From NCBI GenBank assembly GCA_027078075.1, contig JALTKP010000290.1, forward strand, positions 1 through 35,180: a DNA stretch of 35,180 bases, in the 5' to 3' direction. The notes beneath the pieces were generated by a model. That model ran no database searches and was not told where the DNA came from. It saw nothing but the letters and a program-made list of their open reading frames with translations. This DNA is from Gammaproteobacteria bacterium. Its GTDB lineage: Bacteria > Pseudomonadota > Gammaproteobacteria > AKS1. Positions 7,817-34,514 of this stretch are shown here, one piece after another (positions within the stretch are counted from its first letter, which is position 1; every line of letters begins with the position of its first letter). The position numbers and the translations under genes are program-made.

Positions 7817-8926
7817 TTATTCAAAACTAACGTAATCACTAATTTCTAAACCAAAACCAGACAGACCATGCAGCTTCACCTTAGAGCCGAGTACTTGCAT
7901 GTTGCTTACACCAAGGTCGACAAGAATCTGTGCGCCTAAACCGAAGGTACGTAAATCACCCTGCGCCTGTTGTGGCAAGTTTACACCACTCTGTTGCTGA
8001 TGGTAATTTTTGATGTGCTGTAAAATAGTATTCGAGTCATTCGAACTACGTAATACAACAACGATGCCCGAACCATTTTTAGCAATGTGCTGCATTGCCG
8101 CATCGAGGCTGTGGCTACAATCACGGAAAAGGCCACCCAGCGAATCGCATAAGCTATTCAACATATGCACTCGCACTAATACCGGCTCATCCATATTCGG
8201 TTCACCATAAACTAACGCCATATGAACATTTTCATCATAGGCATCAAGGTAAGAGACCAAACGGAAATCGCCGTATTGCGTTGGCATGGTACATTCTTCC
8301 ATGCGCTCAACGGTTTTTTCATTTTCAATACGATAATGAATTAAGTCCGCAATGGTGCCCATTTTCAAATCATGTTGTTTAGCAAAGACTTCCAGATCAT
8401 CTCGACGCGCCATGGTGCCGTCTTCATTCAAAATTTCAACAATGACACTCGAAGCTTCACATCCTGCCAGTTTCGCTAAATCGCAACCGGCTTCAGTATG
8501 CCCTGCTCGTGTTAGCACACCACCCGGTTGTGCTTTAAGTGGGAATATATGACCTGGCATCACAATGTCATCTGGTGTTGCATCAGCCGCAATCGCCGCT
8601 TGTACTGTGGTTGAACGATCTGCCGCTGAGATACCCGTCGTTACACCACGAGAGGCTTCGATTGAAACGGTAAAGTTGGTACCGTGTGCATCGGTGTTAT
8701 TGATCACCATCAACGGCAAATTAAGTTGCTTACAACGATCTTCTGTCATCGTCATACAAATCAAACCACGACCATGGGTTGCCATAAAGTTAATCGCTTC
8801 CGGCGTTACTTTCTCCGCAGGAATAATCAAGTCGCCTTCATTCTCACGATCTTCATCATCCATCAGGATAACCATCTTACCCTGACGCATATCTTCAATA
8901 ATTTCTTCTATGTTACTTAACGCCAT
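7817..8926 (-). CDS. ribB: 3,4-dihydroxy-2-butanone-4-phosphate synthase fused to a degenerate GTP cyclohydrolase II-like domain (RibBX type)
   Basis: N-terminal DHBP synthase motifs (DDEDRENEGDLI, THGRGLICM, RAGHTEA). C-terminal domain aligns to GTP cyclohydrolase II but the Cys/Arg active-site motifs are replaced (RVHMLNSLCDSLGGLFRDCSHSL; LRSSNDSNTI). Confidence 0.92.
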   Translation of the reverse strand: MALSNIEEIIEDMRQGKMVILMDDEDRENEGDLIIPAEKVTPEAINFMATHGRGLICMTMTEDRCKQLNLPLMVINNTDAHGTNFTVSIEASRGVTTGISAADRSTTVQAAIAADATPDDIVMPGHIFPLKAQPGGVLTRAGHTEAGCDLAKLAGCEASSVIVEILNEDGTMARRDDLEVFAKQHDLKMGTIADLIHYRIENEKTVERMEECTMPTQYGDFRLVSYLDAYDENVHMALVYGEPNMDEPVLVRVHMLNSLCDSLGGLFRDCSHSLDAAMQHIAKNGSGIVVVLRSSNDSNTILQHIKNYHQQQSGVNLPQQAQGDLRTFGLGAQILVDLGVSNMQVLGSKVKLHGLSGFGLEISDYVSFE

Positions 8927-33144: not shown

Positions 33145-33789
33145 TTGCGATATGCTATGGAAATGAATAATGAACAGAGCTCAAACCGCATAGCTAAACG
33201 CTTTCGCGGCTTTTTACCCGTCGTAATTGATGTTGAAACAGCCGGTTTTAACGCTAATAAAGACGCATTACTCGAAATTGCCGCCGTTATCATCAATATG
33301 GATGATGACGGTAAACTCTATCAGGGAGAAGCCTGTGCCGCCCATGTCGAGCCATTTAAAGGTGCAAACCTTGACGAGGCGGCATTAGCATTCAACGGCA
33401 TCGATCCATGGCACCCCTTTAGAATGGCGATACCAGAACGAGATGCATTGGAAAAAGTCTTTGAATCAGTTGAACATGCCTTGCAAGACACTGGCTGTAG
33501 CCGCGCTATTTTAGTCGGCCATAACCCCTTCTTTGACCTAAGTTTCCTCAATTCTGCCGTCAAACGCTGCAAGCTCAAAAGTCCTTTTCACGCCTTTAGT
33601 AGCTTCGACACGGCCACCCTAGGCGCACTCGCCTATGGTCAAACTGTCCTCGCTCGTATTGTGCAAACCGCAGGACTAGACTGGAATGACGAAGAAGCCC
33701 ACTCTGCGGTTTACGACACTGAACGAACAGCGGCACTATTCTGTAACATCATGAATCGCTGGCATACGTTGGATAAGCTATCTAAATAA
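33145..33789 (+). CDS. rnt: Ribonuclease T
   Basis: RFRGFLPVVIDVETAGFNANKDALLEIAAV, LAFNGIDP, HNPFFDLSFL, HSAVYDTERTAALF: DEDD exonuclease closely matching RNase T. Exact start uncertain (33145 or 33163). Confidence 0.94.
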   Translation: MRYAMEMNNEQSSNRIAKRFRGFLPVVIDVETAGFNANKDALLEIAAVIINMDDDGKLYQGEACAAHVEPFKGANLDEAALAFNGIDPWHPFRMAIPERDALEKVFESVEHALQDTGCSRAILVGHNPFFDLSFLNSAVKRCKLKSPFHAFSSFDTATLGALAYGQTVLARIVQTAGLDWNDEEAHSAVYDTERTAALFCNIMNRWHTLDKLSK

Positions 33790-33879
33790 TTTTTTAGAAT
33801 AGTTAAGAACGCATGCTGAGATCCGATTCTTTTCTAAACCGGCACTTATACGTTCACCTTTAAACCTAAAATCTTCACG

Positions 33880-33955
33880 TATTGCGGTTATCTGATCTTC
33901 TTCGTCGACGTCAAGCATTCAGCGTGGAGATGAAGGAAAGCAGATAACCGCAATA
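33880..33955. repeat. Foldback element copy 1: 76 bp with perfect 15-bp terminal inverted repeats
   Basis: TATTGCGGTTATCTG (33880-33894) and CAGATAACCGCAATA (33941-33955) are exact reverse complements; the interior is imperfectly self-complementary. Confidence 0.95.
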
Positions 33956-34016
33956 CCCCAACCATTCAGATAATCTAAGCCAATCCCAACAAATTCTAGA
34001 AGCCTAAAACTACACA

Positions 34017-34092
34017 TATTGCGGTTATCTGATCTTCTTCGTCGACGTCAAGCACTCAGCGTGGAGATGAAGGAGAGCAGATAACCGCAATA
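34017..34092. repeat. Foldback element copy 2: 76 bp with perfect 15-bp terminal inverted repeats
   Basis: Identical to copy 1 except two substitutions (aagcaTtc/aagcaCtc and ggaAag/ggaGag). Flanking similarity extends the repeat to about 33865-33970 versus 34003-34107. Confidence 0.95.
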
Positions 34093-34123
34093 CCCCAACT
34101 ATTCAGAAAACAAAAAAAACAAA

Positions 34124-34161
34124 CATAAAAAAAGCGCTGACACAGTCGCATCAACGCTTTT
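34124..34161 (-). terminator. Rho-independent terminator of grxD
   Basis: Minus strand AAAAGCGTTGA-TGCGACTGTG-TCAGCGCTTTTTTT: 11-bp stem with one G-T pair followed by a T-tract, just past the grxD stop. Confidence 0.85.
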
Positions 34162-34181: not shown

Positions 34182-34514
34182 TTACTCGCTAGCGTCTTTC
34201 TTACCCGCTGCTGCTTGCGTCATTTTCTGCAATTCGCCTGTTTGGAAAAGCTCCAAAGTAATATCACAACCACCGATCAACTCACCATCGATATACAACT
34301 GAGGGAATGTTGGCCAATCCGCATAATTCGGCAAGTTTTCGTAGACTTCCTGATCCGCTAATACATTAATGTATCCAAATTCCACTTCACATTGCTGTAA
34401 CGCCTGAGCGGTACGGCTTGAAAAACCACACTGTGGAAACTGAGGTGTTCCCTTCATGTATAAAACAATCGGTGTGCCTTCAACCTGTTCTTTAATTCGA
34501 GCTAATGGATCCAT
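34182..34514 (-). CDS. grxD: Monothiol glutaredoxin, CGFS type
   Basis: VLYMKGTPQFPQCGFSSRTAQAL, WPTFPQLYIDGELIGGCDI. Confidence 0.96.
   Translation of the reverse strand: MDPLARIKEQVEGTPIVLYMKGTPQFPQCGFSSRTAQALQQCEVEFGYINVLADQEVYENLPNYADWPTFPQLYIDGELIGGCDITLELFQTGELQKMTQAAAGKKDASE

Follow-up and report, generated by a model that had tools for sequence, protein, structure and literature searches.

Two tandem copies of one palindromic unit lie between two convergent genes, presumed to be rnt-like and grxD-like, in the window (the whole stretch of DNA that was analysed, 35,180 nucleotides). We consider it probable, at roughly 55%, that the unit belongs to a REP/BIME-like family of non-autonomous palindromic DNA elements, the arms of which are kept matched by way of a single-stranded DNA hairpin. 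This reading is directly backed by a repeat family with a conserved loop and covarying arms, which occurs in inverted pairs and mosaics, is placed downstream of genes and shows an excess of G.T mismatches on its loop strand.

Structure and position of the hairpin pair

The pair and its surroundings comprise the features below; the names of the two genes were taken from general knowledge of their families and from the initial annotation.

33869..33973, + strand: copy 1 of the 105-bp duplicated unit (direct-repeat comparison)
34006..34110, + strand: copy 2 of the 105-bp unit, 93% identical, direct orientation (direct-repeat comparison)
33879..33956, + strand: hairpin 1, type A arms GTATTGC...GCAATAC (folding and covariance model R1, E = 8.3e-20, the sequence being itself part of that model)
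34016..34093, + strand: hairpin 2, type A (covariance model R1, E = 4.8e-20, the sequence again being part of the model)
33906..33929, + strand: hairpin 1 loop core CGACGTCAAGCATTCAGCGTGGAG, one substitution off the family core (core search)
34043..34066, + strand: hairpin 2 loop core CGACGTCAAGCACTCAGCGTGGAG, the exact family core (core search)
33145..33789, + strand: upstream, convergent ORF, which we take to be an rnt-like gene (RNase T), start codon uncertain
34182..34514, - strand: downstream, convergent ORF, which we take to be a grxD-like gene (monothiol glutaredoxin)
34130..34161, - strand: intrinsic terminator-like site with a T-tract, apparently that of grxD, outside the element (terminator search)

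The initial annotation had described duplicate foldback units 137 bp apart, each bounded by a perfect 15-bp inverted repeat, differing by only two substitutions over 76 bp, with similarity running into the flanks (a unit of about 105 bp) and no T-tract behind either hairpin, and all of these points were confirmed. The direct repeat is 105 nt long and 93% identical, with a start-to-start spacing of 137, and the inverted repeats TATTGCGGTTATCTG were located at 33880-33894/33941-33955 in copy 1 and 34017-34031/34078-34092 in copy 2. Within the 76-bp hairpins the copies differ at 33918 (T/C) and 33938 (A/G) only, while 29 bp of flank hold five further differences, so the hairpins diverge less than their own flanks (2/76 vs. 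5/29, P-value = 0.017, Fisher test). Each stem is 27-28 bp long with an interior mismatch, around a 24-nt loop, and the two units stand in direct orientation, A(+)A(+), with a gap of 60 bp. The predicted foldback is far more stable than expected from shuffled sequence (-39.6 kcal/mol vs. -18.9 +/- 2.8, z = -7.4), and 100 shuffles of the window yielded no occurrence of the 24-nt loop core. A homologue of the rnt-like gene, 71-91% identical, was found in 4 of 4 genomes of the genus.

The terminator search found no T-tract after either window hairpin, the sole terminator-like site nearby being that at 34161-34130 on the minus strand, and a terminator identity for the hairpins was rejected for this reason. 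No sigma-70-like promoter was found near the pair, and no Rfam family matched in 33.8-34.2 kb at gathering thresholds. Elsewhere in the window, at 8726-8829, there is an Rfam match to V_AS9, a Vibrio antisense RNA (56.3 bits vs. a gathering threshold of 50), which is unrelated to the hairpins; it lies antisense inside a ribBA-like ORF (7817-8926, minus strand), and coding conservation may account for it.

Family I, its sites and related families

The genome that contains the window (G000) is a MAG in 333 contigs and 80% complete, and it was compared with a sister species (G001, MAG JALTKS01), two further members of the genus (G002 and G003) and G004, from another bacterial family. Counts of hairpins cover about 964 kb of G001, about 240 kb or less of G002 and G003, about 400 kb of G004 and selected loci of G000. 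Given the incompleteness and fragmentation of G000 and the sampling of the other genomes, all copy numbers are lower bounds.

A search with the unit gave two short partial matches in G000, both on contig C229, and more matches in G001. The part common to the copies, which we call family I, is the 24-nt loop core, set in hairpins with unrelated arms. Allowing up to 3 mismatches, we found four cores in G000 (twice each on C290 and C229) and five in G001 (twice each on C109 and C6, once on C99); there were none in G002 and G003, where the R1 search likewise found no family I. A scan of the GTDB r220 species genomes, which may omit records near the genome of the window, found the exact core in the sister MAG JALTKS01 only; there were no occurrences in viral contigs, and blastn against plasmids and phages gave no matches.

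The hairpin scan of orthologous regions revealed an additional pair of the same architecture downstream of argG in G000, with a diverged loop (TGACGTTAGCGAAGCATTAGCGTGGAG), located between stop codon and terminator. In this way, three intergenic sites are occupied by elements in G000 and G001 alike, namely the rnt/grxD gap, the asd/leuB gap and the region downstream of argG, and at least six copies of family I were found in G000. The asd/leuB copy of G001 is a remnant with one arm mostly missing. Because every family I site is common to the two species, no recent insertion is seen. The orthologous sites in G002 and G003 are without the element and strongly diverged, too much to define boundaries, and no clean empty site or target-site duplication was found there.

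The rnt/grxD pair is B(-)A(+) in the sister species and A(+)A(+) in the window, from which we infer that an ancestral inverted pair B(-)A(+) probably gave rise to the window arrangement by tandem duplication of unit A and loss of B. The rnt/grxD gap of G001 (L034, about 1660-1800) contains a scaffold gap of 100 N with the type B arm end CACTTCGCTTC on both sides, which may conceal tandemly repeated B units.

The usual arrangement is an inverted pair, A(-) ~50 bp B(+) (e.g., L034, L037, L038 and L041), with gaps of 35-95 bp; the units being inverted, the loops of A and B are reverse-complementary. Besides the window pair, two other pairs are in direct orientation, and single copies also exist. 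Hairpins with long stems and loops of 12-44 nt number 27 in 964 kb of G001, whereas 430 kb of locally shuffled sequence contained none, and at least five loop families are visible in that genome. Family II (loop GACGCATTGGTGCAGCGCAGCGAACCTCTAAGGA) gave 15 matches in G001 and 9 in G000, and family III (loop gaatcgaa..gagattccctga) 19 and 3, a few of these matches being one palindrome counted on both strands, or fragments; neither family matched in G002 or G003. The two families alternate as III(-)II(+) at C56, C101 and C27 of G001, with a mosaic III(-)II(+)III(-)II(+)III(-) at C56:108255-108770. The arms of family II fall into species-specific subfamilies (G001 GCGCTATCAGGTRAA.., G000 GCGGTYAG.CTTATCTTTCC), which suggests that the family may have spread by copying after the species split.

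Several other loci were recorded. At L187 73-200 (G000 C246), the loop of a family II hairpin is interrupted by another palindromic element. One orthologous intergenic region (L198 about 1507, L199 about 1504) has a family II unit in opposite orientations in G000 and G001, with differing arms, which may be due either to independent insertion or to loop inversion. At L068 19469-19891 and L077 396-602 of G001 there are more inverted pairs, which belong to families IV and V and again have loops complementary to each other.

When R1 was run against 369 genomes of the class, the sole convincing match outside the genus was G004, with seven places at E below 1e-5, an almost invariant loop CGCGACTGAGCCAC(A/G)GTGTGGAGTG and differing, matched arms. 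One G004 locus has an inverted pair, and three copies have near-identical arms. A match in G308 (30 bits) was not counted, being weak and with a loop unlike the family. Long hairpins numbered 0 in the G002 sample (213 kb) and 1 in that of G003 (239 kb), and an E. coli control of 150 kb contained one, with a 12-nt loop and of another kind.

The proposal in the initial annotation of a palindromic repeat family (REP/MITE-like) is thus supported by related hairpins elsewhere in G000 and in two other genomes and by mosaics of the sister families, and its refuting case, with no other copies and no conservation in relatives, is ruled out by the copies in G000 and relatives. Its expectation of conserved termini did not hold: termini and arms vary among copies, while the loop core is conserved and the arms covary.

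Matching of the arms and the strand under constraint

The loop sequence is conserved within families I-III, whose units measure 68-92 bp, with stems of 21-30 bp and loops of 22-34 nt, and the arms of about 25 bp differ from site to site and between orthologues, yet stay self-complementary, with G.U pairs tolerated in the stems. In an alignment of ten intact family I hairpins (A1), 94.9% of 273 pair cells pair, compared with 63.5% in shuffles, and when the partner is slid the pairing falls to 37-53%. Both sides have changed in 23 of 31 pairs, and double-changed cells number 90 against 29.3 in shuffles, an excess that is inflated by the relatedness of the copies. Direct comparison of G001 and G000 orthologues revealed the same pattern of re-pairing at fixed sites. 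Per side, 9-14 of 28 arm positions differ; in argG hairpin A, 8 pairs have changed on both sides and still pair, 2 have changed on one side and 0 are unpaired, and pairs changed on both sides number 7 in argG_B and 9 in rnt_A. Something keeps the arms re-matched, hence the interest of variable arms that match themselves. Since they re-pair at static sites, a requirement of transposition alone would not explain the re-pairing, which counts against the reading that we prefer.

Where pairing is selected in one strand, G.T wobbles should be tolerated and A.C mismatches should not. We set the orientation of each family by its loop before these mismatches were counted. On the loop strand, families I-III have 41 G.T and 10 A.C (P-value = 1.5e-5); with the G004 family added and shared events removed, the ratio is 38:13 (P-value = 6e-4), an excess of a few dozen mismatches in related copies. 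Family III alone gives a weak signal (7:5 after de-duplication). The context was readable for 40 copies of families I-III on simple ORF calls: 18 lie between convergent genes, 20 between tandem genes, 2 between divergent genes and 0 inside an ORF, so that 38 of 40 are downstream of at least one gene. In the 20 hairpins between same-direction genes, G.T:A.C is 13:1 on the loop strand and 6:8 on the transcript strand. We therefore favour a constraint that would act on the single-strand hairpin defined by the loop, rather than on the mRNA of the neighbours. An asymmetry of the same sign could also arise if the loop strand had an RNA of its own, or through strand-biased deamination of cytosines.

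The most serious alternative, which we hold possible but doubtful, is that these are REP-like repeats in which one arm is copied from the other by template switching during replication, with no selection on the hairpin. Such arm-homogenising switching is documented and has been proposed to be common in proteobacteria (PMC8604942), and it agrees with orthologous arms that have re-paired without changing site, leaving few intermediates. It also agrees with arms that are free while the loop is conserved, although the conservation of the loop itself is left unexplained. The opposite loop orientations at L198 (minus) and L199 (plus) are as spacer inversion predicts, and independent insertion fits them equally. 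What argues against template switching is that strand-symmetric copying of arms predicts as many G.T as A.C, while 41:10 (38:13 de-duplicated) was seen on the loop strand; strand-biased deamination could mimic this asymmetry.

The same mismatches bear on the suggestion of the initial annotation that the units are a duplicated structured RNA, here taken as an RNA in the 3' untranslated region of the neighbours (a stabiliser, processing site or terminator) with its arms selected on the transcript. The 38 of 40 copies downstream of a gene, the argG pair between stop codon and terminator, the strong predicted RNA folding and the tolerated G.U pairs would all suit such an RNA. This reading is nevertheless disfavoured, and we regard it as unlikely, because the asymmetry follows the loop strand (13:1) rather than the transcribed strand (6:8) of the same hairpins; moreover, both units of an inverted pair cannot show the loop strand in one transcript, the T-tract is absent, and no Rfam family matches at the window pair.

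Still less probable, and in our judgement very unlikely, is that the reverse-complementary loops of A and B, about 24 nt each, pair with one another to form a compact pseudoknotted RNA or DNA. Complementary loops do occur in 7 inverted pairs with unrelated arms, families IV and V included, and at argG in G000 units A and B have diverged loops that changed together; but three pairs, that of the window among them, are direct, single copies occur, and inverted duplication of any hairpin yields complementary loops anyway. The idea that a chance palindrome was neutrally duplicated in tandem on a single occasion can practically be dismissed, since, although the window copies are a genuine tandem duplication with flanks included, elements stand at three orthologous sites of the sister species, related families occur in the same and another bacterial family, the arms covary, and such hairpins number 0 in 430 kb of shuffled sequence against 27 in 964 kb.

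Comparison with REP elements and the candidate enzyme

Table 1 of a 2013 survey gives REPs units of 20-40 bp, stems of 5-13 bp and loops of 2-20 nt, and the survey defines the GTAG and CGTC superfamilies with an unpaired tag at one end of the palindrome (PMC3733652). Families I-III exceed these sizes, and an unpaired GTAG or terminal CGTC tag is absent from the ends of all their hairpins. Like REP/BIME elements as that survey outlines them, they are short intergenic palindromic DNA in multiple copies, mostly downstream of genes (18 convergent, 20 tandem, 2 divergent), with opposite, alternating units 20-100 bp apart and mosaics (the window pair itself being direct), and they share compensatory stem changes, G.T pairs, several families per genome and the presence of a RAYT gene, with which REP/BIME elements are associated (PMC3733652, PMC2817692). 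They differ in the missing tags, in stems of 21-30 bp instead of 5-13 bp, in family I having only 6 copies found in G000, and in that the loop (22-34 nt) is conserved and the arms are free, whereas REP stems, in the survey's description, are largely conserved within a family (PMC3733652). Since tags and sizes do not fit and the conserved part is in the loop, the elements are REP/BIME-like and not REP proper.

REPINs consist of two inverted copies of a conserved sequence of about 16-24 bp with a variable structured spacer and frequent compensatory changes (PMC3116915). They likewise form tandem clusters that take in flanking sequence, as in the window pair, but their conserved parts are the base of one big hairpin, while here every core forms the loop of a separate long hairpin (PMC3116915). 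The survey also describes REP dimers inside long palindromes, Anabaena variabilis GTAG-15 and Halothiobacillus neapolitanus CGTC-1, in which, as in our elements, a longer palindrome has a repeat in its middle; those dimers are each enclosed by a single consensus palindrome, while here each unit has its own palindrome at each site, and the survey's account of these dimers makes no mention of such site-specific private arms (PMC3733652). Literature searches on conserved loops with variable stems and on double-hairpin elements gave nothing useful. Membership of the CGTC REPs was considered, since the core has CGTC, and not adopted: the letters sit in the loop and not at the stem base. Integron attC sites are single-strand hairpins with hypervariable self-complementary arms, of which one strand is used, and with conserved boxes that flank the variable part. 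The arms described here are likewise variable but self-matching; unlike in attC, the loop is conserved rather than flanking boxes. BoxC/triplex repeats were not adopted either, as loops in the published triplex search are 1-6 nt long.

One RAYT (REP-associated tyrosine transposase) was identified in G001 by the curated model NF047646 (158 bits vs. a cut-off of 80), and close homologues are present in G000 and G002. The RAYT that the initial annotation had suggested looking for is thus in the genome, but it does not adjoin family I copies: the flanks of RAYT hold a CGTC-type dimer in G000 and G002, another hairpin in G001, and family I in none. As CGTC dimers rather than family I follow RAYT in G000 and G002, and G002 has the RAYT homologue and no family I, a link between RAYT and family I is no more than putative. 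At L051 1091-1170 (G000 C246) and L053 about 2015-2090 (G002 C7), RAYT is directly followed by the inverted CGTC-type REP dimer, a neighbourhood that is noteworthy because the 2013 survey describes CGTC REPs as being without a dedicated transposase (PMC3733652). TnpA_REP recognises single-stranded REP and not its complement, and stem mismatches lower its cleavage in two systems (PMC8266576); this strand specificity would fit the loop-strand signal.

In the reading that we prefer, the unit would be a DNA hairpin with a family-specific loop of about 24 nt and arms of 21-30 bp that drift freely while matched, and it would act as the single-stranded DNA hairpin of the loop strand. A putative strand-specific enzyme of the HUH/Y1 type would read the loop plus stem of this ssDNA, spread the elements and, together with a constraint on the hairpin, maintain the pairing of the arms; the one candidate seen for this role is the resident RAYT. 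The absence of GTAG or terminal CGTC tags, the oversized stems and loops and the position of RAYT away from family I also count against it, as do the RAYT homologue of G002 in a genome lacking family I, the sharing of every family I site by G000 and G001, the failure to find a target-site duplication or clean empty site, and a G.T signal of a few dozen mismatches in related copies. We put forward only tentatively, as somewhat improbable, the broader idea of a class of mobile or maintained gammaproteobacterial DNA hairpins, read by a putative strand-specific ssDNA-binding enzyme through the loop and the pairing of the arms, whatever the arm sequence.

Few bacterial repeats are as common as REPs and BIMEs, and the reason for the persistence of their palindromes is unsettled. 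A fixed loop with coordinated drift of the arms can be compared between species at the same sites, and the residual mismatches separate selection on a transcript, recognition of single-strand DNA and repair by template switching; the loop-strand G.T excess is a cheap test applicable to any REP-rich genome. If recognition does proceed through the loop and arm pairing, each copy would have a private, co-evolving stem.
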